From positions 1-36,220 of the IMG/VR virus record IMGVR_UViG_3300028897_000412: DNA of 36,220 nucleotides; one strand, written 5' to 3'. The translations under genes were made by a program, and so were the position numbers. Shown in pieces: positions 13,816 through 35,453 of this stretch (its first letter is position 1; each line of letters opens with the position of its first letter). The DNA comes from a virus. The notes beneath the pieces were generated by a model. The model did no database searches and was not told the origin of the DNA. It saw only the letters and a list, made by a program, of their open reading frames with translations.

Positions 13816-14228
13816 TATTTCTCCAGTGCCTTCTTAACAGCATCCGTCAGTTGTTTTTTTACTGTTTGAAATTTTCGAAACATCGCCATGCTAAGCCATG
13901 GCCTTCTTGGCCGCTCTTGCAATTCAACCAACTGACCACTTTCGTTTATTGCCCTGCCGGTTTCCCATAGTTGCCCATACCAGACGTTTGTACCAATGAT
14001 GCCAAAAATAGCACCGGGTTGAACCTTGGCTTCAGAGCCAACCGACCCACGAAGCCTGCCTGTTCTCACCCGCAAAAACTCGCCCGTCAAATGCAACTGC
14101 GCCTGGGCCTTGACGAACTTGCTCGACCTGTCTACCGCTCCATACAGCTCAGAGCGCAAGGAGTTTATTTTTTTCTCCATGTGCTCGTCGATTTCTTCTG
14201 TGTGCGGTATTAGTGTAAAACGGTACAT
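13815..14228 (-). CDS. HK97 gp10-like neck / minor tail protein
   Basis: 137 residues. RVRTGRLRGSV followed by GIIGTNVWYGQLWETG and RPRRPWLSMAM is the signature of the HK97_gp10 family, thought to lie at the head-tail junction between the connector and the tail terminator. The N-terminal part is helical. Position between connector and terminator supports the call. TAATG junctions on both sides indicate coupled translation. Confidence 0.85.
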   Translation of the reverse strand: MYRFTLIPHTEEIDEHMEKKINSLRSELYGAVDRSSKFVKAQAQLHLTGEFLRVRTGRLRGSVGSEAKVQPGAIFGIIGTNVWYGQLWETGRAINESGQLVELQERPRRPWLSMAMFRKFQTVKKQLTDAVKKALEK

Positions 14229-14809
14229 TACCTGCTCCAGCGCTGTATAAGCGACAAGTATTCGGGCAAATAATTAGCCTTCACAAAATTCGTACTGCCG
14301 CCGTGAGGCGTTGATTCGCTTTCGATCCATGCACGCTGCTTTTTCATCACATGATGCCAGTGGGCCACTTGTCTCGCCAGAATCCGGGCCGCGTTTGCTG
14401 GAAACGTCGAAGTATCATAGCCAGCCGTATAAGTAACTTTCAGTGCATGGTGGCCCAGTTCAAAACTATCATAAATATCGAGCATGATAATGCCCTTGCC
14501 GTAGTCCACCTTGTAATCAGTATTCTCAGTTAGTAAGTCGCCAGACGCAAAGGACCATTCAGAGTCTTCCCATACTTGTACTGCGGGGCTGGTTGCTACC
14601 GGGTATCCCCTGAGAATCACCTTGTTTCGCTGCGGCCCTATATCAAAGTATTCTGTGATGGATTGTTTCACCAACACTCTGTCGGTCTGTTCTTCAAAAT
14701 CCTCTTCCACGGCAATGATAATATCTTTGATCTCGTTTGCTTCCGGCTCCGACGCGAGTTGGCACTCTTTTAGTGCCAGAGCTAATGTAACCAGATTACC
14801 GTCGGCCAT
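14228..14809 (-). CDS. Head-tail connector (gp6-like)
   Basis: 193 residues. The N-terminal helices (LALALKECQLASEPEANEIK and following) and the pattern ILRGYPVATSPAVQVW, YKVDYGKGIIML and LKVTYTAGYD match the gp6/YqbG-like adaptor proteins that sit under the portal ring and join head to tail. The C-terminal helix ARQVAHWHHVMKK is also typical. In most siphoviruses this gene directly follows the capsid gene; here 11 kb of accessory genes lie between. The stop overlaps the next start as TAATG. Confidence 0.85.
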   Translation of the reverse strand: MADGNLVTLALALKECQLASEPEANEIKDIIIAVEEDFEEQTDRVLVKQSITEYFDIGPQRNKVILRGYPVATSPAVQVWEDSEWSFASGDLLTENTDYKVDYGKGIIMLDIYDSFELGHHALKVTYTAGYDTSTFPANAARILARQVAHWHHVMKKQRAWIESESTPHGGSTNFVKANYLPEYLSLIQRWSR

Positions 14810-15848
14810 CTTTGTCTCTCCTAATTATATCGATCAGTTTCTCGGCAGCTTGTTCCCAGGTAAACTGAGAATGTATGCGCTTTGACGCCGCCTTGCCTAG
14901 TTGTTTAACTTTGCCATAGTGCCGATAACAATAATCCATTGAATCGACCAAATGCTGTACGTGTGGAAATGCAGCCCCGGTTACAAAGTCTTCGACACCC
15001 TCTGATTCAGGTAACCACAACCGTACCTCGGTATCTTTAACTGTGTACTCCAAGGGTAAACCTACTGTTTTATCAAAAAAATCCGCCGTTCCAGACCACG
15101 GCGTTGCAATACACGGCAACCCCGTGCTCATGGCCTCACATAAAATCAATCCCCAACCTTCACCTCTGGTCGGATGCACGAGTACATGTGCGGAATGGTA
15201 AAGCGCCACAAGTTCCTCTAGGGGCAACTTCCTGCTATCGAATATTATGTTGCCCTTTTTCTCGTAGTCGGGGATGCGCTTAAACCTTGCCGCCATCTTG
15301 GGATTTGTGGCTTCGTCTACAGGTCGTACCTTTGTTGTTTTGAGATATAATTCGACATGCGGATCATTAATGAACCCACCACCGATCCAAGCCGCAATAG
15401 TTTCCTCGTAGCCCTTGCGCGGGTTTGGGGCACCGATCCATAAGTATCTGAAAGGATACGAGAAATTCCTTTTCTTATATTGGAATATCTTAGGTTCTGC
15501 TCCCTCCGGGCAAATGTAAATCTTTCCATTATAGTGCTGACCAAAAAGATCACGACAAAAACGACAGGGAACAAGCAGGCGATCAGCACGGTGAACGTTT
15601 TCTTTGTATGCGTCTGGAATTTTCGTCCCTTCAAACATGGTAAAAAGCCAGTTGATTTTTCCTGGGACACCACTTTTGAAAATGTCAGCCGACGTGATCG
15701 TAAGCGCATCTTCTGCATCCTCAGCAAGTTCAACATCTTTCCGCCTCGACACATACTCCAGCATCGTACTATTATGGACCGAATACCCAAGTTGATTGGA
15801 AACCAAATCCCTATATTGAGAGGCCCAGTGAAGTTTCAACCTACCCAT
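14796..15848 (-). CDS. GT4-type glycosyltransferase (GT-B fold)
   Basis: 350 residues. The C-terminal half has the retaining GT4 donor site: HSAHVLVHPTRGEGWGLILC followed by EAMSTGLPCIATPWSG; the central linker FRYLWIGAPNPRKGYEE is the usual start of the second Rossmann domain. NWLFTMFEGTKIPDAYKENV in the N-terminal half resembles enzymes acting on surface or flagellin-like glycans. No membrane helix. The ATG at 15848 is favoured over an upstream TTG because AAGGG lies 6 bases before it. The 3' end overlaps the head-tail connector start by 14 bases, so the glycan island is physically fused into the structural operon here. Confidence 0.88.
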   Translation of the reverse strand: MGRLKLHWASQYRDLVSNQLGYSVHNSTMLEYVSRRKDVELAEDAEDALTITSADIFKSGVPGKINWLFTMFEGTKIPDAYKENVHRADRLLVPCRFCRDLFGQHYNGKIYICPEGAEPKIFQYKKRNFSYPFRYLWIGAPNPRKGYEETIAAWIGGGFINDPHVELYLKTTKVRPVDEATNPKMAARFKRIPDYEKKGNIIFDSRKLPLEELVALYHSAHVLVHPTRGEGWGLILCEAMSTGLPCIATPWSGTADFFDKTVGLPLEYTVKDTEVRLWLPESEGVEDFVTGAAFPHVQHLVDSMDYCYRHYGKVKQLGKAASKRIHSQFTWEQAAEKLIDIIRRDKDGRR

Positions 15849-16020
15849 TAGCAACCCTTGTTAAATCACTATCGCTTTCATCGACTATAAGCAAATACTC
15901 GTGGTTCTTATGAAGTTGCCCTATCTCTTCCGGTAGCAGCATTATCCGTGCAATCCCAGCTTCGTAAATTTCGCCTACCTTCTGGTAGCGCTTTTTGCGA
16001 TACAGGAACCATTCAGTCAC
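15841..16020 (-). CDS. Small hypothetical protein, 59 aa
   Basis: The GTG start at 16020 lies 5 bases after the barrel stop, with AGAG upstream. The protein (N-terminus TEWFLYRKKRYQKVGEIYEA, then a strand-like EYLLIVDESD) has a basic N-terminus and acidic end and no recognised domain. Its TAG overlaps the ATG of the GT4 gene by 8 bases, with AAGGG for that gene inside its own 3' end. It fills the only gap in this part of the operon, which supports it as a real gene. Confidence 0.6.
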   Translation of the reverse strand: MTEWFLYRKKRYQKVGEIYEAGIARIMLLPEEIGQLHKNHEYLLIVDESDSDLTRVANG

Positions 16021-16025
16021 TATCT

Positions 16026-16625
16026 CTAAAATGTGTAGCCGACGCCCAAAAACATTCTGAGCCCACCGGCATCGAAAGTTGTTTGGTTGAACGTCTTGCT
16101 CATTTCGCGATTAAAAGAATACCGGGCATGTAATGTGGTGAAAAAACCGGAGTCGTGCTTAAACTGCAACCCCATGAGTACGTCCGGCCCCACGTTTGGC
16201 AGGGTTTCACTTCTGGCCCATGCACTGCCATCGCTGCGCCTGTAATCGTTTTCCAGGATCGTATAATTGACACCGGTTCCAACGTATCCTGTGAGCCAAT
16301 CCTTAAAGTCCTTGCGTATCTTCAGTCCGGAGCCAAAATAAGTTACATCGGCCTCATAGTACCGCCCATCAAACATTTCTACTTTTGTCGGATGGTCTTT
16401 GCCGCCATAAAAATACAATCCCGTGTTGTCCCACCAATACGTCGCCTCGGCTTGATAGCATGGGCCATTAAATTCCTTGTCTTCCTTTTCGCTATGAATG
16501 AACGTATGCCCGCTCTGCGACCAAATGTGGTATCCGCCACTGAATGACAATTCCAATTCATTCTTTGCGTGGGCCGACGTGGCAATGAATATCGCGGCTA
16601 CTAGAAAAAACAGTACCTTTCGCAC
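16026..16625 (-). CDS. Outer-membrane beta-barrel protein with signal peptide
   Basis: 199 residues. A classical signal peptide (MRKVLFFLVAAIFIATSAHA) has a probable cut after AHA. The rest alternates amphipathic strands (LELSFSGGYHIW, ATYWWDNTGLYFYGG, GSGLKIRKDF, GYVGTGVNYTIL, VLMGLQFKH, FTTLHARYSFN) and ends in GGLRMFLGVGYTF, the C-terminal Phe signature read by the BAM machinery. About eight strands fit an OmpA/Lom-size barrel. In lambda-like phages such proteins alter the host surface or block further infection; that role is inference here. GTG start has GGAGA 5 bases upstream, one base after the SQD1-like stop. Confidence 0.85.
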   Translation of the reverse strand: MRKVLFFLVAAIFIATSAHAKNELELSFSGGYHIWSQSGHTFIHSEKEDKEFNGPCYQAEATYWWDNTGLYFYGGKDHPTKVEMFDGRYYEADVTYFGSGLKIRKDFKDWLTGYVGTGVNYTILENDYRRSDGSAWARSETLPNVGPDVLMGLQFKHDSGFFTTLHARYSFNREMSKTFNQTTFDAGGLRMFLGVGYTF

Positions 16626-16626
16626 G

Positions 16627-17760
16627 TCATCTCCATTTTGTCTTTGGTGCTATGGCTTCCGGCTTGGCATGCTTAGCAAAACCGACGCACGCTCCCAGTA
16701 GCTTGACAAGTTCATCGTTGAAATTTCGGGGTCTGAAACCGAGATTTCGCAGTTGCACGCATTCCGGCAAGTAGAAATGTTCCTCTGCTTCTATGCGCGG
16801 GTTTTCCACCGAGCCGTATTCGGCCTTTATTAAACCAAAGTGTTTATGCGCACACTCGCAGACCAAGCGGCCCAGCTCTTCTATGGAAAACAAATCTCCG
16901 AATTGATTGAAAACTCTGTGTTCCCCGGCTTTTGGCGGGTTTAGCATGGACAACTCAAAGCACCGCATAGAGTCGTTGATATTGATAAAGCCTCTGGTTT
17001 GCCCGCCTTTACCGTATACGGTACATGGCATTCCAAGTGCCGCCTGGACACAAAACCGATTGATAACCGTGCCGAAACATTCGTCGTAGTCAAATCTGGT
17101 CCACCACACCGGTTCGTTTTCGGCATCGTCGATATGAGCCCCGTAAACCACACCCTGCATTATGTCTGTGGCTCTGAGCCCCCATTGATTGCACGCCATG
17201 GCAATATGATTAGTATCAGTCACCTTGGTTTGGTGATACCAGCTACCGGCCTGTTTCGGAAAAGGCAATCGATCCTTGCAGTTCCGATACTCTATTTCAA
17301 AGTACCCTTCGGGAATCGGCATGTTGGGCGTGCCGTATTCGCCCATGGTTCCCAGCTTTAAAAGGTGCGCTTCCGGACACGTTTCTTTCATGGCCCACAA
17401 TACATTGAGAGTGCCGACAATGTTGTTGACCTGAGTTTCCACGCACGTTCGTACCGATTTCATAGAGTACGGCGCAGAGGGTTGTTCGGCAAAATGCACT
17501 ATGGCGTCAGGTTTGTGGTTTGTGAACATCTGCTTGAGGTCTGCATAACTCGTGGCAATGTTCCCCTTGTAGAAATCGGCAAGCAATTTTCTCCGTGCTT
17601 CCATGGTGAGTATCGGGATCAAGCTGTCGCTGCCGACCCTATTTACTATTGATCTCCGATAGCCGTTGTCTACGCCCCAAACATTGTGGCCCCGATTTTT
17701 CAAGTACAGGGCCAGACTCCATCCCAGGTAACCGTCTATCCCCAATATGCAGACTTTCAT
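16627..17760 (-). CDS. sqdB: UDP-sulfoquinovose synthase family protein (SQD1/SqdB-like SDR)
   Basis: 377 residues from the ATG that overlaps the upstream TGA. SQD1 enzymes make UDP-sulfoquinovose from UDP-glucose and sulfite. Family signatures run throughout: ILGIDGYLGW, VDNGYRRSIVN, DSLIPI, IVHFAEQPSAPYSMKS, LGTMGEYG, SWYHQTK, FDYDECFGTVINRF, YGKGGQTRGFI, NPPKAGEHRVFNQF and PRIEAEEHFY. Candidate catalytic residues are Thr138, Tyr175 and Lys179; their spacing (37 and 4) equals Thr145, Tyr182, Lys186 of the plant enzyme as I recall it. A relative acting on another sugar is possible, but the FAEQ, QTR and EAEEH blocks are specific to this group. No lipid sulfoquinovosyltransferase is obvious, so a glycan use is more likely than sulfolipid. 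Confidence 0.9.
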   Translation of the reverse strand: MKVCILGIDGYLGWSLALYLKNRGHNVWGVDNGYRRSIVNRVGSDSLIPILTMEARRKLLADFYKGNIATSYADLKQMFTNHKPDAIVHFAEQPSAPYSMKSVRTCVETQVNNIVGTLNVLWAMKETCPEAHLLKLGTMGEYGTPNMPIPEGYFEIEYRNCKDRLPFPKQAGSWYHQTKVTDTNHIAMACNQWGLRATDIMQGVVYGAHIDDAENEPVWWTRFDYDECFGTVINRFCVQAALGMPCTVYGKGGQTRGFININDSMRCFELSMLNPPKAGEHRVFNQFGDLFSIEELGRLVCECAHKHFGLIKAEYGSVENPRIEAEEHFYLPECVQLRNLGFRPRNFNDELVKLLGACVGFAKHAKPEAIAPKTKWR

Positions 17761-17918
17761 TTTTCTACCACTCCCTTTTGTTTTTTCCACGCATCCCACG
17801 CATTCTCGCAATACACACAAACGTAAAGCGGTTTACCGTAAACCGCCGGATCATACTCAGGGTGAGCATGGCACACCGGCGGTATGGTGCGATTCAACTT
17901 GCGTGATCCCCTAACCAT
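17757..17918 (-). CDS. Small Cys/His protein, 53 aa
   Basis: Basic N-terminus (VRGSRKLNR), then CHAHPEYDP and YVCVYCENAWDAWKK, a pattern able to bind one zinc. The start at 17918 overlaps the upstream TAG by a few bases and has GAAAGAG before it; a GTG at 17939 is a less likely alternative. The TGA overlaps the following ATG as ATGA. Function unknown. It is one of three Cys-rich small proteins in the island. Confidence 0.6.
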   Translation of the reverse strand: MVRGSRKLNRTIPPVCHAHPEYDPAVYGKPLYVCVYCENAWDAWKKQKGVVEK

Positions 17919-18726
17919 TTTGTCTCTTTCTCTTCGCACGGTTTCTCCATCTAATTAAATCCTGTTTCATTCGATCCCTTGCAGACCAGCCCAGTACGTG
18001 ATATGCCATACTTGGATCGGGCGGCACGGCCTTCGGCTCCAGCTTAAAACCGTATTCCCAGTTTAACCCTATGGCATCAACCAGCTCGCGGATTGTTCTG
18101 GTCACTCCGGTACAGATTTCCAGGGGCACTCCAGGCAATGCCTTTGTTTCGATAACCGCCTTGATAGCCGAACACACTTCCCATACGTGGATAAAGTCGC
18201 GTTGCTGATTTCCGTCACAATAAACGGTAACGGTTTCCCCGCTCTCTATGGCTCTTAAAAACCTAGCGACCACGGTGTCTTTCTTTTGGGTAAAACAAAA
18301 CCCGCCGTACACATTGGAAAACCGCAAAACCCACGCTTGAACCAATCTTGTGGTTTCGCAAAGTTTTTCCACGGCCTGCTTTGTCTTGCCGTAAACCGTG
18401 TAGGGATTTTTGGCGGCGGCACTAGAGGCCACTATAAGTTTTTTTACTCCGGCACGTTTCGCTGCCAGCACGGCATTCACTGTGCCAACGTAATTAATCT
18501 GCCATGCAAGTTCGGGATTGTCATTACAGGGTGCTACGCCTGGAATCGCCGCAAGATGTATCATGGTGTGGCAATTCCGTGCGTACCGCGTGAGCGTCTT
18601 TAAATCCAATATGTCTAGCTCGCTTTGCAGATCGTACAGGACGACACTGTGCCCCAGCATCGTAAGAAACGTACCGAGGTTTAAACCAATATAGCCTTCG
18701 CCCCCGGTAATGAGGATTCTCACCAT
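17911..18726 (-). CDS. NAD(P)-dependent nucleotide-sugar epimerase/dehydratase (extended SDR)
   Basis: 271 residues. The N-terminal ILITGGEGYIG is the glycine-rich dinucleotide motif; HLAAIPGV, VASSAAAKNPY and the catalytic YGKTK (Tyr-x-x-x-Lys) follow, then RFSNVYGG and QQRDFIHVWEV as in GalE/RmlB-type enzymes. At 271 residues it is short for GalE (about 330). The exact reaction (C4 epimerase, 4,6-dehydratase or 4-reductase) cannot be decided. The Ser/Thr before the Tyr motif appears to be in the SSAAA block. It is adjacent to the 2-epimerase and the SQD1-like gene, so it likely shapes the same or a second nucleotide sugar. Confidence 0.85.
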   Translation of the reverse strand: MVRILITGGEGYIGLNLGTFLTMLGHSVVLYDLQSELDILDLKTLTRYARNCHTMIHLAAIPGVAPCNDNPELAWQINYVGTVNAVLAAKRAGVKKLIVASSAAAKNPYTVYGKTKQAVEKLCETTRLVQAWVLRFSNVYGGFCFTQKKDTVVARFLRAIESGETVTVYCDGNQQRDFIHVWEVCSAIKAVIETKALPGVPLEICTGVTRTIRELVDAIGLNWEYGFKLEPKAVPPDPSMAYHVLGWSARDRMKQDLIRWRNRAKRKRQNG

Positions 18727-18932
18727 TCAACCTTTTTGGCCTCGTAGACCGTTACTTCGCCCTTGGGGTTGCCGTCCTCAACCAATGCTTCCGCCTTGGC
18801 TATGGCTGCTTCCATGGAGTCTTCAAAGAAAACGGCGTGCCGGGCCCGCACGTGAACCGGGTGCATGATAACGTAAGAAACTTCTTCCCTTACCTCTTGT
18901 TCTGGTGCAAAATCTTCCTCTTTACCAAACAT
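18720..18932 (-). CDS. Small hypothetical protein, 70 aa
   Basis: Acidic protein with an ATG and GGGAG 6 bases upstream, three bases after the 2-epimerase stop. The pattern is strand (VSYVIMHPVHVRARHAVFF), helix (SMEAAIAKAEALVED), strand (GEVTVYEAKKVEW), a small alpha-beta fold. No family recognised. It overlaps the next epimerase gene by 7 bases and is probably translated with it. Confidence 0.7.
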   Translation of the reverse strand: MFGKEEDFAPEQEVREEVSYVIMHPVHVRARHAVFFEDSMEAAIAKAEALVEDGNPKGEVTVYEAKKVEW

Positions 18933-18935
18933 TGT

Positions 18936-20060
18936 CTACTCCCATAAAATTTTAGTTAAAATGTCACATATACGTTCGCCCGCCAATCCGTCGCCAAAAG
19001 GGTTACGCCACTCTTTGTGTGTGTCAAAGTGCTTCACTCCCCGGATAAGATCGTCGTAGTCGTGACCAGCAATGTAATTCGCTCCCACCTCTACAGTTTC
19101 GGGTCGCTCCGTATTGTCTCTCAATGTGATACAGGGAACGCCTAAAATGCACGCTTCTTCCTGTACTCCGCCTGAATCCGTAAGCACATAAGCCGCATTT
19201 TTTAGCAAGTTCAAAAAACTCAAATAGCCCACAGGCTCTATGACTTTGATATTTTCCTCTTTTACCAAATATTGAAAAATGCCGTATTTGTTCATCTGTT
19301 TCTTTGTCCTGGGGTGTATGGGGAAAACCATCTCTTTGTCCCAATGCCGGGCCATTTTGACCAGATTGGAAACGAGATAGGAAAACGTGCTCCAGTTGTC
19401 CACGTTTTCCTCCCTGTGGATCGTAACTAGAGCGTATTCCTTACTGAAAACCTCCAGGGCGCGTAAAATGCTATCCCCCGACACTAATTCTATGTTTTGA
19501 TACACGGCATCCACTATGGTATTACCAACAACTTCAATCCGCCCCCTTACATTGTCAGCCACAAGGTTTTGCTGGGCCTGCACCGTAGGTGCTAAGCACA
19601 CGTCGGATATATGGTCGATCATCACCCGGTTATGTTCTTCCGGCATGCGCCAATCGCCGCTTCTCAGTCCTGCTTCCATGTGTACCAGGGTTAGACCCAT
19701 CTTTCTGGCCGCGAGCGCACCGGCCAGATTCGTATTGGCATCGCCACCAACAATGACGACTTTGGGTTTTTCCACCCATAGTTCAAGTTCGATAGTGGTA
19801 AGCATCTGCGCCGTTTGATACCCATGCAGAGAAGCCGGGGCCATCTTGTTGTGGTACTTCGGTTTGGGTAGTTGCAGTTCCTCAAAAAACACCTTGTCCA
19901 TGTTTTCCGAGTAGTGCTGGCCCGTATGTATGACAAAAAACGGCAGTCCTCTAGTCCCTAGGGAACGTACCACCGGAGAAAACTTTATTATTCCCGGCCT
20001 CGTACCTACCACTACGGCAATGTTCTTCGCCAAGTCTTTCTTTTGTAATATCTTCGACAC
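18936..20060 (-). CDS. wecB: UDP-N-acetylglucosamine 2-epimerase, non-hydrolysing
   Basis: 374 residues, the normal WecB/MnaA length. It interconverts UDP-GlcNAc and UDP-ManNAc. Family blocks are intact: VVGTRPGIIKFSP at the N-terminus (the usual GTRPE has Gly in place of Glu), VIHTGQHYSENM, VIVGGDANT, HMEAGLRSGD, PEEHNRVMID, TIHREENVDN, FPIHPRTKKQ, TDSGGVQEEA and NTERPETVEVGAN. The GTG at 20060 is preferred because GGAGGGG lies 5 bases upstream and the resulting length fits the family; longer reading to 20180 would only run through the esterase gene. It supplies a nucleotide sugar for the local glycosyltransferases. Family assignment is very secure. Confidence 0.93.
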   Translation of the reverse strand: MSKILQKKDLAKNIAVVVGTRPGIIKFSPVVRSLGTRGLPFFVIHTGQHYSENMDKVFFEELQLPKPKYHNKMAPASLHGYQTAQMLTTIELELWVEKPKVVIVGGDANTNLAGALAARKMGLTLVHMEAGLRSGDWRMPEEHNRVMIDHISDVCLAPTVQAQQNLVADNVRGRIEVVGNTIVDAVYQNIELVSGDSILRALEVFSKEYALVTIHREENVDNWSTFSYLVSNLVKMARHWDKEMVFPIHPRTKKQMNKYGIFQYLVKEENIKVIEPVGYLSFLNLLKNAAYVLTDSGGVQEEACILGVPCITLRDNTERPETVEVGANYIAGHDYDDLIRGVKHFDTHKEWRNPFGDGLAGERICDILTKILWE

Positions 20061-20634
20061 CGAATCCCCTCCGCCGAATAATTGCGTCCATGACCCGTCT
20101 TGCCATCTCTTTCGATCCTTTATTGTTGAGATGCACCGAGTCGGGGTAACAGTCCTTTGGAAAGTTTGAAAGGTCGACAAAATTGCCGGTTCCGCTGGCC
20201 AGATTCGCCAGGATTGCGTTATATTCTTTTATGAGAGTTAGGGATTGCATATCGTATCCCGTACTCCCAAAACGCCCAAAATCCGGAACCGAACACAAAT
20301 ATACAATTCGGCCCAAAACGTTCAGCGCTCGCAAAATGCCTCGCATGTTTTTTTGAAAGATCAACGGCGGCGTCTGAACCGACGGCTTGGAATCGTTCGT
20401 GCCTATGCACACTACAACCTCCACCGCTTCCGGATACCTTTTTGTAAGATCGTAAGCGTTTCTTAGTAGGTCGGCGCTTGTCCAGTTGTTGACCCCTTTG
20501 TTTATGCAAATCCATTGCTGTTCGAATTTATTCGACAGCATGTCCGATAGCTCAAACGGGTAAGCCCGGTTATATTCATCTCGCGCCCCATTTGTAATGC
20601 TATCCCCCAGGCAGAGTATAAAGCCGTAAATCAT
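19951..20634 (-). CDS. SGNH/GDSL-family hydrolase (probable carbohydrate esterase)
   Basis: 227 residues. Block I is LCLGDSITNG at residues 7-16 (nucleophile Ser12), block III is CIGTND, and block V is DSVHLNNKG with the catalytic Asp and His. There is no signal peptide, so it acts in the cytoplasm, or on exit if carried in the virion. SGNH enzymes of this size often remove or move acetyl groups on sugars, which fits the surrounding genes. The ATG overlaps the upstream TGA as ATGA. The C-terminal tail of about 36 residues overlaps the start of the 2-epimerase gene by 110 bases in another frame, unusually long for this region. Confidence 0.85.
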   Translation of the reverse strand: MIYGFILCLGDSITNGARDEYNRAYPFELSDMLSNKFEQQWICINKGVNNWTSADLLRNAYDLTKRYPEAVEVVVCIGTNDSKPSVQTPPLIFQKNMRGILRALNVLGRIVYLCSVPDFGRFGSTGYDMQSLTLIKEYNAILANLASGTGNFVDLSNFPKDCYPDSVHLNNKGSKEMARRVMDAIIRRRGFGVEDITKERLGEEHCRSGRYEAGNNKVFSGGTFPRD

Positions 20635-21146
20635 TCTTTCCTCCAGGCCCAAACATTTCCTGGCATCTCTTCCACTTCGCCCAAAAGTTTGGTTACCGCC
20701 TTGCGCACTGTGGCAAAGTGAAAATCGTGCCCGCAAAGCACCCCTCCGCTTTTTACTTTCGGCAACCACGATTCCACATCAATAAGTACGGCATCGTAAG
20801 CATGGTCGCCATCTATAAAAACCGTATCAAAAAAATCTTTCCGAAACATTTTCGCTGCGGCCTCGGAAGTCATGCGCAAAACGCGCAACTGCCTAAACTC
20901 ACCTGTCAACCATACGGCATCAAAATACATACGATCCCACTCTTCGGCGGACAGCTTCATTAACCGTGGCTCGGAAGCACATTCAACGTTCCACGGGTCT
21001 ATGGCCCAGTATTGTTTTATTTCGGGCAAGTTCGCCAAGACCACTTTTGGCATAAGGCTGTCCCAAACGCCGATTTCGGCTACACGAACAGCCCCTAATT
21101 GTCTGATGATTTGCATCCACGATTGCCTATGTGGGCCTATCTTCAT
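20631..21146 (-). CDS. SAM methyltransferase-like, second Methyltransf_24 type
   Basis: 171 residues. The start at 21146 is chosen because TAATG joins it to the previous gene and GAGGA lies 7 bases upstream; a frame opening 30 bases earlier lacks this. Visible motifs are VRVAEIGVWDS, WAIDPWN, FDTVFIDGDHAYDAVLIDVE and GGVLCGHDF, typical of Methyltransf_24. The glycine-rich motif I is degenerate (GVWDSLMPK instead of a G-x-G), so SAM binding should be tested. It differs from its neighbour enough to be an old paralogue or separate acquisition. It ends in an ATGA overlap with the esterase gene. Confidence 0.75.
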   Translation of the reverse strand: MKIGPHRQSWMQIIRQLGAVRVAEIGVWDSLMPKVVLANLPEIKQYWAIDPWNVECASEPRLMKLSAEEWDRMYFDAVWLTGEFRQLRVLRMTSEAAAKMFRKDFFDTVFIDGDHAYDAVLIDVESWLPKVKSGGVLCGHDFHFATVRKAVTKLLGEVEEMPGNVWAWRKE

Positions 21147-21709
21147 TACAGTTTCCTCGCTATTGCCATACCACATTTGCCGGGCTGTCTATGGAGCCTC
21201 GGCTTGCCATCGTAAGGTAGAAGTATTCCTTGGAAATTGGCTTTATCCAGAAAGGTATCAACCGCCCTTCTTATTTCTTCGGAACAGTAATAGTCGTGGA
21301 CAACAATCAAACCGTCCTTTCTTATGGCCGCAGCAAAATTGAAAAGCAGTCGTACCTGGGATTCGTAGTCGGTAAGAGCGTCCACAAAAAGCAAGTCAAG
21401 AGGTATGTTCCACTCGCAATTTGTGGCATCAAGGCAGTGGAATTTCATTCTTAATTCGTGCCTGCGGTTTGCCCCCGCCACATAGAGTTTTTTGCGTTCA
21501 TTTATGTCGATAACATGATGATCGCCACCGAAATACTTCGCATGAAATCCCAGTGCAATGCTGCAATACCCGCCGCCGTAGCCTATTTCTGCGGTTGATC
21601 TTGCTTGCATCAAGCGGGCTAAATGATAAAGGATAGGCGCAACCCAATCAGTTAAGGACGGGCGTGCGTCTTCGGCCAGCTTTTGCCAAAACTCATTCGG
21701 GCTTTTCAT
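21146..21709 (-). CDS. SAM methyltransferase, Methyltransf_24-like
   Basis: 187 residues with motif I TAEIGYGGGYCSIAL, the acidic ribose-binding strand HHVIDINE, DLLFVDALTDYESQV and the post-motif GLIVVHDYY. These resemble the Methyltransf_24/TylF-like group, which often O-methylates sugars or small molecules. ATGA overlap with the GT2 gene upstream and TAATG with the next methyltransferase place it inside a tightly coupled group. A sugar O-methyl transfer is the likely role by context; the acceptor is unknown. Confidence 0.8.
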   Translation of the reverse strand: MKSPNEFWQKLAEDARPSLTDWVAPILYHLARLMQARSTAEIGYGGGYCSIALGFHAKYFGGDHHVIDINERKKLYVAGANRRHELRMKFHCLDATNCEWNIPLDLLFVDALTDYESQVRLLFNFAAAIRKDGLIVVHDYYCSEEIRRAVDTFLDKANFQGILLPYDGKPRLHRQPGKCGMAIARKL

Positions 21710-22554
21710 ATCGGCTCCAATCCTGCTTTTACTCGTTTCTCGCGGATGGAATCCACAGTATCAAGGCAGTTGCGAATGACGCCACGGTCTATCTCTTCGC
21801 GAATTACTGCCGGGTAGTCCCAAAACCTCCAAACTTCTGGATTAGGACAATCATCGGTTTCAAAAACTTTTCGTAAAAGCCACTTTTCAGCAACTTGATT
21901 AAAATCTCTCAACTCAAAACCCCTGTGTTCCGCTATCCATTCTCTTCGCGGCTTGACTCTTCCTGCATGTCGCCATTGCGGCCAAAACTGTCGTTCGTAA
22001 ATACGTTCGGGCCGCTTGATGCAGATATTCCAGACACCCCACCACGTTCGTAAGGCATTTTCGCGAGCCAGGCTCGTCGGCAAGTTGCGCGTTCCTGCCG
22101 CCGGAGCCCATACTTGAGGGTTGTTGCAGTAGAGGGTTTTGTGTGGCGGCTGAAAAGGCAATTTCGCGCTCGTATGTTCGTAGTCGTAAAAAAGCCGTAT
22201 GAGCGGAAACTTGTAGGTCATTATTTTTTCACTTCCGACCAGCTTCCTCACTTTGCGCATCGCGTATGGCCCCTCGGTTTGCAGAACATGGTCGCCGTCG
22301 TGAATAAAAATCCAATCGGTTTCACATTTTTCACAACTGAACGTCCTGGCGTCTTTTAATGTGCCCTCAAACTTAAAAGTCCGGGCCTTCAATCCCCAAG
22401 CGTTGATGCACTCACCCACGATTTCCATGGTGCGATCGCTGCACCCGTTGTCCACGAAAACAAATTCATCAACAATGTCTTTGGCCGACTTAATAGACAG
22501 GTCGACCATTAACTCTTCGTCGTACAGCACCATTGCTGCCGAAATAGTTTTCAC
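21706..22554 (-). CDS. Family 2 glycosyltransferase (GT-A)
   Basis: A 282-residue single-domain enzyme. The N-terminal ISAAMVLYDEE strand, FVFVDNGCSDRT, and the acidic metal-binding motif DWIFIHDGDHVL at about residue 85 define the GT2 fold; no membrane segment is present. It resembles the SunS/WaaE-like group of cytoplasmic GT2 enzymes, which use a nucleotide sugar to glycosylate lipid A core or peptides; which one applies is unknown. GTG is used as start because the family strand begins at residue 2 and the GTGA overlap couples it to the gene before. Its stop overlaps the next ATG as ATGA. Confidence 0.85.
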   Translation of the reverse strand: MKTISAAMVLYDEELMVDLSIKSAKDIVDEFVFVDNGCSDRTMEIVGECINAWGLKARTFKFEGTLKDARTFSCEKCETDWIFIHDGDHVLQTEGPYAMRKVRKLVGSEKIMTYKFPLIRLFYDYEHTSAKLPFQPPHKTLYCNNPQVWAPAAGTRNLPTSLARENALRTWWGVWNICIKRPERIYERQFWPQWRHAGRVKPRREWIAEHRGFELRDFNQVAEKWLLRKVFETDDCPNPEVWRFWDYPAVIREEIDRGVIRNCLDTVDSIREKRVKAGLEPI

Positions 22555-22760
22555 CGCCTTTTTCTCCCGCTCCGTTTTTTACGTTCCTTTTCCATAGCTT
22601 TTTTGCCGACGGTCTTAGGCTCCGGCCACACAACACCGCGCTGGTAAAAAGCGCTCTGCTGGCACTCCTGAGATGTGTATAGTCGGCATGCCACGTTGAA
22701 ACAAAACTCCGAGCCATCCCTGGCTACAAATTCTCCCTTCCCCAATTCACAAATCCCCAT
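22551..22760 (-). CDS. Small Cys-containing basic protein, 69 aa
   Basis: ATG at 22760 has GGAGG 4 bases upstream and overlaps the decarboxylase end by 14 bases. The N-terminal half has four Cys (ICEL, EFCFNVACRL, QECQQ), possibly a metal site; the C-terminus is strongly basic (KERKKRSGRKRR). No family recognised. The TGA overlaps the GTG start of the following GT2 gene as GTGA, so translation is probably coupled. Confidence 0.65.
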   Translation of the reverse strand: MGICELGKGEFVARDGSEFCFNVACRLYTSQECQQSAFYQRGVVWPEPKTVGKKAMEKERKKRSGRKRR

Positions 22761-23232
22761 CGTACCTCCAAATGATTTTGCCGTCGTTGCGATCAACCAC
22801 GAGAGCCACACCGACAAAGCCCTTAAAAAAAGCCTTGAAGATTTTCAGCGCTTTTTCGTAGTTAAATGGTTTGCAGGAAAATATGTCGAAATCCACCTCC
22901 CAATAATCAGTCCACGAATGTACCGTAACATGGCTCTCCCAAAGCATGGCGCAGCCTGTTATTCCTGAATCTTTCGGCTTGGAAGGATGATTGGCCCTAA
23001 TAATCATCGGGTTGTCTATGTACGGTATTAATTTCATCCCTATTTTTTCGGGAAGGGCGCGTACCAACTTAAATATGCCAAACCGCCATGCCAGAAAACC
23101 CGGATCGCATCTGACTAGAGTTCCCAACAAGTGAATCCCGCGATCCTTGCGCTTTAAAGGTTTTTGGCGAGCTGGACGAGCCAGTTGTTTAACTTGTCTA
23201 TATTTGAATCCACGTCGTATTTTCTGCCCCAT
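22747..23232 (-). CDS. speD: S-adenosylmethionine decarboxylase-like pyruvoyl enzyme (SpeD/SpeH class 1b)
   Basis: The core from about residue 32 matches class 1b AdoMet decarboxylases: IHLLGTLVRCDP corresponds to the N-terminal HLL-CD strand, and WESHVTVHSW to the family ESHxTxHTW. Using the Thermotoga enzyme as I remember it, Ser63 (cleaved to make the pyruvoyl group), His68 and Cys83 all have counterparts here at the same spacing (S, +5 H, +15 C in DIFSC). The usual WPE is WTD, so the substrate may have changed; relatives with arginine or ornithine decarboxylase activity are known. The ATG at 23232 has GAGG 7 bases upstream but adds a basic 31-residue leader over the glycosyltransferase 3' end. 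A later start such as TTG 23130 would give about 127 aa, the normal family length. Confidence 0.8.
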   Translation of the reverse strand: MGQKIRRGFKYRQVKQLARPARQKPLKRKDRGIHLLGTLVRCDPGFLAWRFGIFKLVRALPEKIGMKLIPYIDNPMIIRANHPSKPKDSGITGCAMLWESHVTVHSWTDYWEVDFDIFSCKPFNYEKALKIFKAFFKGFVGVALVVDRNDGKIIWRYDGDL

Positions 23233-25706
23233 TCCACAACCTCACCCATGTCCCAACCCTCTTTCAATTTCTGCACTATGATCTGGTCGGGATCGCGCTG
23301 ATACACCGTGCCGAAATTGCCCACCTGTTCGCGTATCGCCCCGGTTTCGTAGGCTACGGGCCAGCACCCGGCGTTCAATGCTTCGTAAATCGCCACCGAG
23401 GCCGATTCATAGATTGACGGGTGAAAATAAATCTTGCTATTGCCCATCATCTCGGCCACTTGCGATTTCGGAACATCAATCCAATAATCAACCCCGGATT
23501 GCTCGATGTGTTTGTTGCCGCCTATCGCGCAGATAGCCCCTTTAAGATTATTGTCTTTGACTACCCGCAAAAATTCCTCTACCCTTTTTTCCGCCGTGTT
23601 GGTTCGTGTGGCATAGCAAATGTCATACTTGCGCTCGCTGAGCGGCTTTGCGGCTTCCCTAAACATCTCGTAGCTATACGGTGGGAAAATCCACCTGTCG
23701 CATTTCAGCTCCCGGCATTTCGTTTCCGTATTAGTCCAGTATTCCTTTACTGGGCCTAAAGCCGTTCCTGTCGGGGAAATTGTCCAGCTTATAACTGGCG
23801 GCGCCCCCTTTGCTTCCACGGCACGTTGAGCTACTACCCAAGAAGCAAAAATTAAATCCCTGCCGCGCCACTCTTCTGGAGCCTCACCGTAAATCCTTTT
23901 CAGCGTAAGCCTTACATCTTCATCGGTAAGATACTTTGCGTCGTGCATTCGCAAAACGTCTTCTTCGCTCCGTATGTCTTCCGGATAAAAACACGAGTGT
24001 AAAATCACATCGTGACCAAGGCGCTTGAACGCATCGGCAAATCTCACCATGGTTGACATTCGTCCGGATATTCTTGCTATATTCCATTCGCATACGGTTA
24101 TTTTGAGTTTGCGCCGTGCATTTGCCAGTTCTTGCAATCGTCCCTTTAACCGACCTTCGATTGTCGGCCACTTGGGTACTACTACAGGTTTTGGCTTTCG
24201 GCTACTGTTCTTACCGTGCAAATGAACAACGCTAAAAGTCTCTTGCTGATATTGACTTCTGTAGCCAAGCCATCGCAAGGCATAGCTCAAACGCCAATCC
24301 GGCCACGGGCCAATACACCAATATTCTGATGCTTTCTGTATTGCCGACTTGCGAAAAACATTTGTCGAACCTATTGGGTTGGCAGTCATGTCAGAGCCAT
24401 TCCGGTGGTAGCTGCGACCGTACAAAACGTGGTCTACTTCAAAAACGTCGCCGTGAATCGTCGCCACGTCCTTTGGCGCGCCAATCAAATACGGCCTAAC
24501 ATCATGCCGCATTTCATCATCGTCATCACACATTCTGACCCACTCGTGGCTGGCCTCGGTTATGGCTCTAATTGTCAAATCGCGTGTATGTTGCCAGTAC
24601 CTCAGTAACATCTCTTCAGGGATTTCCGAAAACATGGAGCTGTCTATAGGAAGATCGTCAAAGCTCTGCTCGCGAACCACGATCTTGCTATAATCGGAGT
24701 AGCGCTGGGCTTCGTACTTCACGTTCCACCTGACGTCCGGAGCAACATACAAATTGATTTCGTCCGGATGCTGATAGGTTACTATCGATTTCATCGCCCG
24801 GTGAAATAACCCCTCGGAACGCGATACCAGCATGCTTACCGAGAGTTTTTCTGCGCCCGCTTCCAGTTTCGTCGTCCACCTTTCGACAAACCGTTTCATG
24901 CTGTTTTTCTTGGCTTCGTTGGAGTCGAAAGTTGTTTGAGTCGTAACGGTTGAGTTTTTCAAGTGCCGTATGCCAGTATTTGGCTCATGGTCAACTAGGT
25001 AACCCTTTTCTTTGGCTCTGAAAATAAAGTCGGTATCCGCATACCATGCCGGGGCATATCCTTCGTCGTAGCCGTTAAGACTTTCAAAAGTCTCTCTTCT
25101 CAGTATCATCCCGCCGGAGCCCACATAGAATGATTTGTTCCTTTTTGAACTGCACGGCATTGCCCCGCCGTCAATGGAGATGTACCATAGCTCGGAACCA
25201 ACAATGTCGGCCCCCTGTACCAGCTTTGAAAAAAGGACTCTGATAGTTTTCGGCTCAACGTACTGATCGTTGTCAAAAAACAAAAGCCATTCCCCGGTCG
25301 CCCGTTTCGCCCCTACGTTTCTTCCCATGGCGCAGCCCAGGTTGACCTCGTTTCGTACATAAACAAGGTCTGGTTGTGTCAGCGCCCAATCCCTTGTGCC
25401 GTCACTGGAACCATTGTCTACCAGGATAATTTCGTAAGGCCGCAAATTAGACGCCCGCAGCCTATGGATACATTCCTTGGTTATTTCCAAAAGGTTGTGA
25501 CATACAACAACCACGGAAATCCTGGCGCAGTTGCCACCGGTTTCCATTTCGGTTTTACATTCAGAATCGCTGGGCTCCAGCCCGAAAACGCTTACCTTGA
25601 AAGCGCTCGCCCCGCATCCTTTTTTTTGACACCGAATCGTAACCGGATAGTCTGCATCAAAAGTAAAGCTCCACCCGCAAACAGCACACTCGCCCCTTAG
25701 TCGCAT
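23154..25706 (-). CDS. Multidomain glycosyltransferase: zinc knuckle, GT2, second GT-A-like, GT4-like, 850 aa
   Basis: Residues about 5-40 form a Cys knuckle (ECAVCGW and RCQKKGCG). Residues about 65-270 are a GT2 domain: ISVVVVCHN, EIILVDNGSSDGT, NLGCAMGRNVGA, the LLFFDNDQ acidic motif and WYADTDFIFRA. Residues about 285-530 look like a second GT-A unit, with VSMLVSRSEG, an acidic MCDDDDEM motif and PDWRLSYALRW. Residues about 545-850 are GT-B/GT4-like: VCEWNIARISGRM, SWTISPTGT, DICYATRTN, and the donor-site helix FHPSIYESASVAIYEALNAG. It could therefore add several sugars in sequence in the cytoplasm. The ATG at 25706 has AGGA 9 bases upstream; a GTG two codons earlier overlaps the previous stop. 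The C-terminus overlaps the decarboxylase homologue by up to 79 bases. Domain calls are firm for units 1 and 3, weaker for unit 2. Confidence 0.88.
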   Translation of the reverse strand: MRLRGECAVCGWSFTFDADYPVTIRCQKKGCGASAFKVSVFGLEPSDSECKTEMETGGNCARISVVVVCHNLLEITKECIHRLRASNLRPYEIILVDNGSSDGTRDWALTQPDLVYVRNEVNLGCAMGRNVGAKRATGEWLLFFDNDQYVEPKTIRVLFSKLVQGADIVGSELWYISIDGGAMPCSSKRNKSFYVGSGGMILRRETFESLNGYDEGYAPAWYADTDFIFRAKEKGYLVDHEPNTGIRHLKNSTVTTQTTFDSNEAKKNSMKRFVERWTTKLEAGAEKLSVSMLVSRSEGLFHRAMKSIVTYQHPDEINLYVAPDVRWNVKYEAQRYSDYSKIVVREQSFDDLPIDSSMFSEIPEEMLLRYWQHTRDLTIRAITEASHEWVRMCDDDDEMRHDVRPYLIGAPKDVATIHGDVFEVDHVLYGRSYHRNGSDMTANPIGSTNVFRKSAIQKASEYWCIGPWPDWRLSYALRWLGYRSQYQQETFSVVHLHGKNSSRKPKPVVVPKWPTIEGRLKGRLQELANARRKLKITVCEWNIARISGRMSTMVRFADAFKRLGHDVILHSCFYPEDIRSEEDVLRMHDAKYLTDEDVRLTLKRIYGEAPEEWRGRDLIFASWVVAQRAVEAKGAPPVISWTISPTGTALGPVKEYWTNTETKCRELKCDRWIFPPYSYEMFREAAKPLSERKYDICYATRTNTAEKRVEEFLRVVKDNNLKGAICAIGGNKHIEQSGVDYWIDVPKSQVAEMMGNSKIYFHPSIYESASVAIYEALNAGCWPVAYETGAIREQVGNFGTVYQRDPDQIIVQKLKEGWDMGEVVEWGRKYDVDSNIDKLNNWLVQLAKNL

Positions 25707-25708
25707 AT

Positions 25709-25942
25709 TCACTCTTCCTTATGTTTTCTCGCGTAATGCCTTTTGGGATGAATCGGGCAATCGTAACAAACCATAAAACTGCCCGACCGCAGCAACTTAC
25801 ATGAACACTTTCTCTTTTTTTCGATACTTACTGTCTCTTCCGGTTTATGGTCTTGCTTCAGTTCCACATAACACTCCGCACATAAATTCTCGACAGCTCG
25901 CGGACTCTTTTTACAGTTGTCGCACCAAATATCTTTCGGCAT
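25709..25942 (-). CDS. Small Cys-rich (zinc-ribbon-like) protein, 77 aa
   Basis: The protein has two clusters: WCDNC near residue 7 with LCAEC near residue 20, and CSCKLL near residue 46 with VCYDCPIHPKRH near residue 58. This is the spacing of two small zinc-binding knuckles. It is the first gene after the capsid terminator. The only SD-like GGGG lies 9 bases before the ATG and is part of the terminator stem, so initiation may compete with hairpin formation. Its stop lies just before the giant glycosyltransferase start, and that protein also begins with a Cys-rich knuckle. Function unknown; nucleic-acid or protein binding is only a guess. Confidence 0.7.
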   Translation of the reverse strand: MPKDIWCDNCKKSPRAVENLCAECYVELKQDHKPEETVSIEKKRKCSCKLLRSGSFMVCYDCPIHPKRHYARKHKEE

Positions 25943-25944
25943 AG

Positions 25945-25983
25945 AAAAAAGCCCCGTTGTTTAGCTAAGCAAGGACACGGGGC
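25945..25983 (-). terminator. Rho-independent terminator after the capsid gene
   Basis: On the minus strand GCCCCGT pairs with ACGGGGC (25977-25983 with 25951-25957), and the stem is followed by TTTTTT. The 19-base loop contains a TTG/CAA pair and the palindrome TTAGCTAA, so it can extend the hairpin. The run of T ends 2 bases before the start codon of the next gene, so the accessory island begins exactly at the terminator and probably depends on readthrough. Confidence 0.8.
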
Positions 25984-26004
25984 AACGTCCTTTCGGGGCG
26001 GGGA

Positions 26005-26025
26005 GGGGCGCAGGGGGAACGCCCC
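26005..26025 (-). other. Second hairpin in the capsid 3' gap
   Basis: A GGGGCG / CGCCCC stem of 6 bp with a 9-base loop lies between the capsid stop and the terminator. It has no T-run, so it may stabilise the capsid mRNA 3' end rather than terminate. The whole 25943-26041 gap is unusually G-rich on the plus strand and holds no gene. Confidence 0.45.
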
Positions 26026-26041
26026 TTCCTGGGGGATTATC

Positions 26042-27301
26042 TTAGGAATGGGTCAGCATCCGCACGAAAGCAGTAGTTAACGCCGCTTCCAAATCCCACA
26101 TATTCCACAGTTTGAACCGGGTCTTGTTCTCAACGAACAAACCATAGGGGTCAACATGGAGAGCCATGCTGCCGACTCGGCGACCTACCCAAAAATACCG
26201 CAAGTTGCCGAAGGTCAAGAATGCGGTGTTAGCCGCATCAGTACCGGGGCACTTGGTATTCTCGTAGTAGGGGAACCCGTAAATGGTAGGCGGCTTGTTG
26301 CCAGCCGGTTCGTAGAAAATGGGACGACCATTGGAGTCCTTAAGGGTGCGCACGTAATGCATGGCAAGGCCGTGCATGTGGAAAGAAGCATTTTGCTTCC
26401 GGCGTCCGTCAAGTTTCTGGATCATTTCACTGAGCAGATCAGCGGTGGTATTGGCGAACGAAGTTGATCCAGCTCCCATGACAACTGAATGACCACACCA
26501 GGCGGTCAGAAGACCAGAGCAGGGATTGCCAGTACCGTTCCACGCCTGGTTATCCAACTCAAGCCCCATAGCCTCCGCAAACAACTCGGTCAGCCAGGAC
26601 ACTATGTCGTAGTTTGCGTCATACAGGGTCTTGTTTCTCACGGTTGAGTAGGCTCCCACTTCCTGCGGGTCCAGCTCAACTTCCGTGATAGTTGGATCAG
26701 ATGCGGCTGCGGTACTAGACCACGTTACCGATACCCCGGCAGATTCGACAGGCAGCGACAGCTTGCCTGGTCCCATTTCAACCACAGTACCTTGCTGTAG
26801 GATCAGAGACTCTTCACGGGCAAAGCGAACAACCTCGTCCTCCACAACGTCCGGCATGGGCCACAGGTTTCCGGGGTCACCGATTGCGGTTTTTTCCCTG
26901 CGAAGGTGACCGTATTCCTGGTCAAAAAGCTGGCGTGCGCGGTAGTCTTCCTTTACAGCCGCTTCCACGAACAGAACCATATACTTGGCGATCTGCTCGC
27001 GCACCGCATGATCTTCGATGCGGTACTTGTGGCCGCGAAGCTGTTTGTCCATGAGCCGCAAGCCCAGCCGCGAGATACTCCGTCCCAGTTCCTTTTCGAT
27101 GAATCCCTTTACAGGGTCATCTCCCAGGTGAGAAGTATCCCACATCTGGAAAGTGCCAGCCTTCTGCTTTTCGACTGCCTCGGCAATCTTGGCCTGTTCC
27201 TCTTCGGCCTTTTCCTTTGCCTCAAGATAGGCATTGAGCCCGGCGGTTTGCTTTGCCAGGTCTTCAATTACCTCAATCAGTTTCTTTTCGTTCTCTTCCA
27301 T
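26042..27301 (-). CDS. Major capsid protein, HK97 fold
   Basis: A 419-residue protein downstream of the prohead protease. Residues about 1-60 are a highly charged coiled coil (KKLIEVIEDLAKQTAGLNAY and following), typical of the delta domain removed by the protease. The mature part contains the HK97-family core: LPVESAGVSVTWSSTAAAS, LDPQEVGAYSTVRNKTLYDA, the spine-helix region LTELFAEAMGLELDNQAWNG, then GNPCSGLL, YYENTKCPG and LFVENKTRF near the end. It forms the icosahedral shell. AGGAG lies 9 bases before the ATG. Terminator-like hairpins on both sides suggest its transcript level is set apart from its neighbours. Confidence in the family is high; the cleavage site cannot be read from sequence alone. 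Confidence 0.95.
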   Translation of the reverse strand: MEENEKKLIEVIEDLAKQTAGLNAYLEAKEKAEEEQAKIAEAVEKQKAGTFQMWDTSHLGDDPVKGFIEKELGRSISRLGLRLMDKQLRGHKYRIEDHAVREQIAKYMVLFVEAAVKEDYRARQLFDQEYGHLRREKTAIGDPGNLWPMPDVVEDEVVRFAREESLILQQGTVVEMGPGKLSLPVESAGVSVTWSSTAAASDPTITEVELDPQEVGAYSTVRNKTLYDANYDIVSWLTELFAEAMGLELDNQAWNGTGNPCSGLLTAWCGHSVVMGAGSTSFANTTADLLSEMIQKLDGRRKQNASFHMHGLAMHYVRTLKDSNGRPIFYEPAGNKPPTIYGFPYYENTKCPGTDAANTAFLTFGNLRYFWVGRRVGSMALHVDPYGLFVENKTRFKLWNMWDLEAALTTAFVRMLTHS

Positions 27302-34991: not shown

Positions 34992-35453
34992 CTATTGTTG
35001 CACTATTCGCTCAAATTGAATGATTTCGTCAGTGTCTTCCCAACACAGGTACAGCCGGTTGTAAAGCGTTCCGGTGTCGAGCATATACACCTCAACAATC
35101 GCCATCTTTTTCTCTTCGTCGATTTCCCGTATCGACCCTTTTTCGATGGCTCCGGCAGTCACCTTGGCGGCGATCCCGTCCTCCACTGCCTGCCTGAAGG
35201 CGGAAGTTGTGTCGTTGTACTCAATCTTGTCGGGCGGTATGCCGTCTTTGTAATAAGCCGCTTCTCCAGCCCCGCCCTCGTCGTACACAACGATGTGAAC
35301 GCTCTGGTTAAATGCCGATTCGTTTCGCAACGCCTTAAAAACCAGCAAGTACCACTTGCCGTAAGACGGCGGATCGTTTTCGTTCATCAGCTTTGATTCC
35401 AAAAGCTCGCCGTATTTCGTGTTCAATTCGGCTATCAGTTCTGCTTTGGTCAT
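34992..35453 (-). CDS. Hypothetical protein, 153 aa
   Basis: I do not recognise the family. The protein is soluble and acidic, with no signal peptide, membrane segment or Cys pattern. The N-terminal 20 residues are helix-like (TKAELIAELNTKYGELLESK); the middle is strand-rich (WYLLVFKAL, VHIVVYDE); a helix follows around FRQAVEDGIAAKV, then two strands (AIVEVYML, YNRLYLCWE). The start is chosen because ATG overlaps the previous TGA as ATGA, implying translational coupling. Its place between a glycosyltransferase and the region upstream of the protease is compatible with either a structural accessory or a glycan-related role. No function is proposed. Confidence 0.7.
   Translation of the reverse strand: MTKAELIAELNTKYGELLESKLMNENDPPSYGKWYLLVFKALRNESAFNQSVHIVVYDEGGAGEAAYYKDGIPPDKIEYNDTTSAFRQAVEDGIAAKVTAGAIEKGSIREIDEEKKMAIVEVYMLDTGTLYNRLYLCWEDTDEIIQFERIVQQ

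Follow-up and report, generated by a model that had tools for sequence, protein, structure and literature searches.

Virion glycosylation has been documented in few phages, and piecemeal annotation hides its genes. In mycobacteriophage Corndog, gp35-38 encode an O-methyltransferase, two glycosyltransferases (GTs) and a GlcNAc transferase in the virion operon; their products were seen in infected cells, and capsid modification was proposed (PMC4351075). Glycans on the capsid and tail tube of mycobacteriophages have also been reported, according to a paper citing that work (PMC12619734). The Pseudomonas phages D3, Psp6 and P7869 have an HK97-type capsid (phrog_10 was tested for Psp6) like that of the window, by which we mean the whole stretch of DNA analysed here, a complete and linear IMG/VR record of 36,220 bases that is probably a fragment of a phage genome. 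These phages carry sialyltransferase-like and methyltransferase genes in the region from capsid to neck, and P7869 also a GT9 gene. The sialyltransferase-like gene of D3 lies in the slot behind the capsid gene and its methyltransferase gene further down among the neck genes, while the Psp6 slot holds three or four such genes in 2.7 kb. In Tetraselmis viridis virus S20 (NC_020840), capsid (phrog_10) and adaptor (phrog_442) are of the same families as in the window, and GT, sialyltransferase-like and methyltransferase genes are found between the capsid and head closure genes. A further viral gene of relevance, from a Mu-like virus of the Cariaco Basin, belongs to the same enzyme family as one in the window; it was read as a UDP-sulfoquinovose synthase and a host-glycosylation AMG (PMC7785012).

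Gene order and borders of the island

All noteworthy genes of the window are on the minus strand. With falling coordinate, the structural genes follow the order protease-like, capsid, island, adaptor, neck1, tail terminator, major tail, chaperone, tape measure and J-like central fibre. A sequence-only reading had placed a glycan island between the HK97-type capsid gene (27301-26042) and the head-tail adaptor gene (14809-14228), and both this order and the coordinates are correct, giving a capsid-to-adaptor gap of 11.2 kb. Its description of the content was likewise borne out, although its count of about 16 genes was too high, as 15 same-strand island ORFs are present. The three GT genes are a GT2-GT4 fusion, a GT2 and a GT4, with four GT domains recognised by Pfam, and the two methyltransferases, the esterase, the 2-epimerase, the two SDRs and the decarboxylase homologue were all matched in Pfam or NCBIfam. 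The SQD1-like nature of one SDR, the presence of four GT domains and the recurrence of the slot in many phages had escaped the sequence-only reading. The features are as follows.

35450..36220, minus strand: partial GT9-like protein, running off the contig; weak relatives immediately ahead of the GT2 genes in contigs L005 and L014
34214..34858, minus strand: SAM methyltransferase of the upstream cluster (PF08242, E 1.2e-10)
28886-27372, minus strand: protease-like protein (phrog_617/3017)
26042..27301, minus strand: major capsid protein, HK97 fold, upstream border of the island (PF05065, E 3.8e-41; phrog_10)
25944..26012, minus strand: intergenic stretch in the gap separating the capsid gene from the first island ORF, with a terminator-like hairpin GCCCCG ... 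CGGGGC-TTTTTT (sequence and folds)
25709..25942, minus strand: small Cys-rich (zinc-ribbon-like) ORF of 77 aa, start codon uncertain (sequence; Pfam and PHROG searches without match)
23154..25712, minus strand: multi-domain GT of 852 aa with a Cys-rich N terminus, GT2 (residues 66-186; PF00535, E 2.1e-27) and GT4 (692-802; PF00534, E 2.9e-10)
22747..23232, minus strand: pyruvoyl decarboxylase of the AdoMetDC/SpeD family (PF02675, E 1.6e-13; alignment to 1tlu)
22551..22760, minus strand: small ORF (ORF list)
21706..22554, minus strand: GT2 glycosyltransferase with a DGD motif (PF00535, E 4.1e-7)
21146..21709, minus strand: SAM methyltransferase, Methyltransf_24 (PF13578, E 2.6e-10)
20631..21176, minus strand: SAM methyltransferase, Methyltransf_24 (PF13578, E 1.7e-13)
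19951..20769, minus strand: GDSL-type esterase or acylhydrolase (PF13472, E 1.6e-16)
18936..20180, minus strand: non-hydrolysing UDP-GlcNAc 2-epimerase of the WecB type, whose real start is closer to 20.0 kb (TIGR00236, 361.7 bits, cut-off 210)
18720..18932, minus strand: small ORF (ORF list)
17911..18726, minus strand: extended SDR nucleotide-sugar enzyme (PF01370, E 6.9e-34)
16627..17760, minus strand: SQD1-like SDR, Pro type, first ATG of the homologous part at 17760 (NF041015; SQD1 alignment; residue table)
16026..16625, minus strand: secreted protein (signal peptide present) that may be an outer-membrane barrel (from sequence; Pfam search without match)
15841..16020, minus strand: small ORF (ORF list)
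14796..15854, minus strand: GT4 glycosyltransferase, last island gene (PF13692, E 6e-11; phrog_2170, E 1.4e-30)
14228..14809, minus strand: head-tail adaptor, downstream border of the island (phrog_442, E 2.6e-11)

The start positions of several island genes are approximate. A Shine-Dalgarno-like motif of at least 4 bases precedes 27 of the 31 chosen starts compared to 13% of random positions, a contrast which is overstated as the motif partly guided the choice of starts. Island and structural genes share strand and overlaps, as had been noted from the sequence: the adaptor gene has its AGGAG and start codon within the 3' end of the GT4 gene, and the two genes have 14 bp in common. This overlap argues against a chimeric contig, in which a bacterial polysaccharide locus would have been joined into a phage sequence during assembly. 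While the gene content is reminiscent of a glycan locus from a bacterium, and close relatives of the contig were not found, we regard a chimera as highly improbable, given that the GC content of the island (46-50%) is similar to that of its flanks, that GC and strand are uniform over both junctions, and that the same arrangement occurs in independent contigs and sequenced phages.

Glycan-type genes are also located outside the island, at 36220-34214, and encode the GT9-like protein, a 153-aa protein and the SAM methyltransferase, a cluster which recalls the one between portal and protease in Corndog. The GT9-like fragment had no match in a Pfam search, and its AlphaFold model (pLDDT 29) is unusable. 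Between the methyltransferase and protease genes (34213-28898, minus strand) lies the gene of a 1771-aa protein with an RCC1-like N-terminal part followed by dozens of Ser/Gly/Ala-rich repeats (SGAAD...), which could be a virion adhesin or a target of glycosylation.

Transcription signals

Late co-expression of the island with the virion genes, as predicted earlier, is plausible, since the start of the adaptor gene is embedded in the final gene of the island and consensus promoters are no more frequent than in shuffled sequence (18 promoter-like sites compared to 19.6). With the adaptor start in this position, transcription of the adaptor and tail genes would have to pass through the island, barring a promoter inside it. 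The hairpin between capsid and island is only suggestive, since its fold is no more stable than usual (z -1.0), but the six T behind it make it plausible that some transcripts end after the capsid gene, which could keep island expression below that of the capsid. T-run hairpins are seen on both sides of the capsid gene (27341-27323 and about 26007-25946, minus strand) and may insulate the capsid transcript.

Enzymes of the island

The SQD1-like SDR aligns end to end with UDP-sulfoquinovose synthase over residues 21-397, with 49% identity to Arabidopsis SQD1. It matches NF041015 over positions 1-384 of 384 (E 2e-138) and, using phmmer, 1i24 (E 1.7e-109), but does not reach the NF041015 equivalog cut-off (461.6 bits compared to 575), a level attained by 0 of 50 viral homologues. 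The [ST]MG...YxxxK motif, which is the active-site fingerprint of UDP-sulfoquinovose synthase (PMC8987622), is intact (T158 M159 G160, Y195 and K199), and the His, Met, Tyr and Lys positions of SQD1 and Agl3 are kept. Homology to the plant (SQD1) and Sulfolobus (Agl3) enzymes is full-length, and the fingerprint is shared, but their essential Arg101 is Pro114 in the window protein. The R101A mutant of Agl3 is inactive, and the primer table of the same study gives AEQ-R-SAP as the context of this arginine (PMC4388408). Owing to this replacement, plain UDP-sulfoquinovose synthase was not kept as a settled identity. Pro is likewise present in 78 of the 80 viral homologues and in 50 of the 80 bacterial ones, which leaves the product uncertain: the Pro-type enzyme may yield UDP-sulfoquinovose, the 5,6-ene sugar that UDP-sulfoquinovose synthase forms in the absence of sulfite (PMC8987622), or another 6-modified sugar.

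The Pro-type subfamily constitutes an unexplored enzyme group that extends to bacteria. Homologues of the SQD1-like enzyme are encoded by at least 99 IMG/VR contigs (best identity 56%) and by bacteria (up to about 51%), and a tblastn search of 50,697 phage records returned no full-length SQD1 homologue, only partial matches of about 25% identity. An SDR gene on the same strand and at most 1.5 kb away from the SQD1-like gene is found at 14 of 128 Pro-type loci compared to 0 of 30 Arg-type loci, which is only suggestive of a tie between the Pro type and a neighbouring SDR.

The decarboxylase homologue retains the pyruvoyl Ser and the catalytic His and Cys (ESHVTVHSW...FSC in the comparison with 1tlu), and Thr replaces the Pro of true AdoMetDC at the HTWP position, as read from the 1tlu alignment. 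This Pro is completely conserved in true SpeD, and phage AdoMetDC homologues can be ornithine or arginine decarboxylases (PMC10407285). The lack of the diagnostic residue suggests that the island enzyme may likewise be an arginine or ornithine decarboxylase. Relatives of the methyltransferase at 20631..21176 are found near sqd genes in several other viral islands. The best solved relative of the WecB-type epimerase is PDB 4neq (394 bits), an archaeal enzyme; other solved 2-epimerases score at most 269 bits. As to the proposed surface barrel, it is deduced from a signal peptide, predicted strands and a C-terminal Phe of the secreted protein, the structural model (pLDDT 33) being unusable.

The slot behind the capsid gene is a variable insertion site

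The earlier reading held that capsid and connector genes are normally adjacent, and in phages of the same capsid family this is indeed so, the gap being 34 bp in HK022 (up to gp6), 288 bp in Mesorhizobium phage P1, 459 bp in Vibrio phage Cla and 292 bp in Xerxes, with 440 bp in P. stutzeri phage pAN. Within this family the distance extends from 34 bp in HK022 over 2.7 kb in Psp6 to 11.2 kb in the window, the largest example met in this comparison. A comparison of filled and empty genomes had been proposed as a means to find the ends of the insertion. IMG/VR searches gave no close relatives of the window's capsid, a single contig with one domain in common with the J protein, and no empty-slot relative of the window's own close lineage, and an empty site was therefore sought in other lineages, where the insertion ends are visible.

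Seventy-one loci were gathered by the capsid protein of contigs L004 and L048 alone, blind to sugar genes and in a lineage unrelated to the window's capsid. For loci with an identifiable conserved marker downstream, its distance from the capsid gene is bimodal, being either 0.22-0.70 kb or 2.4-9.6 kb, and after merging of near-identical contigs 14 empty and 14 filled slots remain. A PF00535 or PF00534 domain is encoded in 10 of the 14 filled records but nowhere in the 14 empty ones (Fisher p 1.5e-4, or 0.004 when the empty records are restricted to long ones). Across 48 whole records, 25 of 27 GT-domain matches fall either in the slot or no further than about 11.5 kb behind the capsid gene. 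Where the slot is resolved, 14 of 16 matches are inside it against 4.2 expected under uniform placement (exact p 4e-8, which is optimistic as some of these records are near-copies), and each of the 10 distinct records with a GT shows one match or more there. These recurrence statistics are drawn from metagenomic contigs, some of them fragmentary. The lineage of the L081 capsid is mixed, as four contigs (L240, L249, L251 and L252) carry a sialyltransferase-like gene directly after the capsid gene while four others (L241, L244, L248 and L250) do not; for the phrog_1005 capsid lineage no further relatives were found.

Filled slots are encountered in several capsid families, namely phrog_10 (the window, Psp6, virus S20 and D3), phrog_771, phrog_29 and phrog_1005. 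The capsid-to-connector slot is a real, variable insertion site, and its filling with varying sugar genes in unrelated phages suggests that the virions of many phages bear unusual glycans of the phage's own making. Such a variable slot, recurring after the capsid gene, also offers a simple rule for finding such phages, including the culturable D3 and Psp6. The commonest first slot gene is of the sialyltransferase-like family phrog_4603 (L004:4075-4575, L081:4594-5301, D3 orf7), which includes the morphogenetic genes pmgO/pmgP of P1 (PmgO/PmgP). As the activity of this family is only putative, the statistics above rest on GT2 and GT4 domains. Radical SAM proteins recur in filled slots (L004:7256-8233, L014:5699-7474 and L173:12904-13995), and none was found among the island proteins of the window.

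Location and recruitment of viral sqd genes

In at least 32 of 80 viral loci the sqd gene adjoins a block of ParB/DNA-methyltransferase (ParB-like fusion) and DNA polymerase genes, contigs L010, L013 and L015-L024 being among these. Such loci fall mostly in one clade of the tree, and the association is apparently separate and old. Other sqd genes are situated among structural genes, in the following contexts.

L004: protease, decoration, capsid (phrog_771), island, neck1, major tail, tape measure
L014 and L005: capsid (phrog_1005), island, minor tail, tape measure
L081: portal, protease, capsid (phrog_29), island, tape measure
L048 and near-copies: capsid (phrog_771), two small genes, island, minor tail, tape measure
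L029 and L079: sqd gene upstream of tape measure genes

In a quick maximum-likelihood tree with structural-slot labels set from local context, these sequences are scattered, with 9 label changes of which at least 6 are forced by well-supported branches. A single origin of the structural-slot genes is unsupported by this tree, and the scatter points to repeated recruitment of sqd genes into structural slots. A more far-reaching proposition is that phages with unrelated capsids have independently and repeatedly taken the Pro-type enzyme into the capsid-to-connector slot, and thereby coat their virions with a 6-modified, possibly sulfonated, sugar made by no characterised UDP-sulfoquinovose synthase. 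We put this forward as a conceivable but rather doubtful extension.

Proposed function of the cassette

The catalytic motifs of the island enzyme set are intact, and we favour, with moderate confidence, the interpretation that the products of this late-region cassette synthesise nucleotide sugars and, within the cytoplasm, transfer a modified glycan onto virion proteins. The WecB-type epimerase would supply UDP-ManNAc in the cytoplasm, while the SQD1-like enzyme, perhaps together with the neighbouring SDR, would make a 6-modified UDP-hexose. The soluble GTs would then attach a short glycan directly to at least one kind of virion protein and extend it, and the methyltransferases and the esterase would finish or trim it. 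The cytoplasm is also where virion proteins accumulate. The benefit may lie in shielding from receptors, antibodies or defences, or in host binding. The gene content, the catalytic motifs, the position of the island, and the recurrence and presence or absence of slot contents across phages are observed, whereas the acceptor (the capsid or another virion protein), the identity of the sugar, the timing and the benefit are inferred. Should the SQD1-like enzyme feed the cassette, anionic or unusual virion sugars could affect adsorption, persistence and immune recognition.

Four observations count against virion glycosylation: the terminator-like hairpin between capsid and island, the sqd genes beside ParB and DNA polymerase genes in many other phages, the lack of an empty-slot relative in searches for the window's own lineage, and the secreted, possibly outer-membrane protein, which points to the host surface. 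Modification of that surface, late in infection or in a lysogen, might keep released virions from sticking to debris or exclude superinfecting phages, with the secreted protein (16625-16026) acting in a Lom-like manner. The WecB and SDR enzymes, which are typical of surface polysaccharides, and a weak likeness of the GT2 domain to the GtrB type (phrog_841, E 5e-9) would fit such a role. On the other hand, no flippase, polymerase, ligase, GtrA, polyprenol-phosphate transferase or membrane-anchored GT is found among the annotated island proteins, and none of the island proteins has a transmembrane segment (maximum 19-residue Kyte-Doolittle mean 1.74). The lack of hydrophobic segments and of surface-glycan machinery fits a cytoplasmic protein acceptor better than an exported glycan. 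A slot within head-tail genes, recurrently filled in several lineages, is moreover an odd site for host-surface genes, and we consider this explanation unlikely.

Less likely still is a general metabolic load, in which host nucleotide-sugar and polyamine pools are adjusted with no specific acceptor, or else DNA is modified. The AdoMetDC-type gene, of which phage homologues may act as ornithine or arginine decarboxylases (PMC10407285), the SQD1-like genes next to ParB and DNA polymerase genes in at least 32 contigs, and the AMG interpretation of the earlier viral UDP-sulfoquinovose synthase (PMC7785012) are in line with such a role. A set of four GT domains with two methyltransferases and an esterase nevertheless implies a defined glycan. 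Searched for genes of modified-nucleotide synthesis with DNA glycosyltransferases, the 36-kb window, a genome fragment, yielded none, and no DNA hydroxymethylation gene was found in it either.

Comparison with known systems

The island differs from the Gtr-type O-antigen seroconversion cassettes, which comprise the flippase GtrA, the polyprenol-type GtrB and a Gtr with transmembrane helices: neither a GtrA-like protein nor transmembrane segments were found in it, and the one point of likeness is the weak GtrB-like match of a GT2 domain. The Cariaco Basin virus gene is described in the available part of its report as a lone AMG, without the structural-slot context seen in the window (PMC7785012). 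Virus S20 comes close in its capsid and adaptor, but its glycan genes flank the adaptor on either side, amount to about 6 kb in total and lack annotated SQD1-like, WecB and AdoMetDC genes. The slots of D3, Psp6 and P7869 hold one to four genes as compared to fifteen in the window, and none for nucleotide-sugar biosynthesis. Corndog, a cluster O phage and the closest precedent that has been studied, shares with the window a cassette of GT and methyltransferase genes inside the virion operon, but its four genes are placed between portal and protease, and no sugar-synthesis enzymes are reported among them. Taken together, the island of the window is a large and enzymatically unusual form of a known kind of cassette, that exemplified by Corndog and D3.
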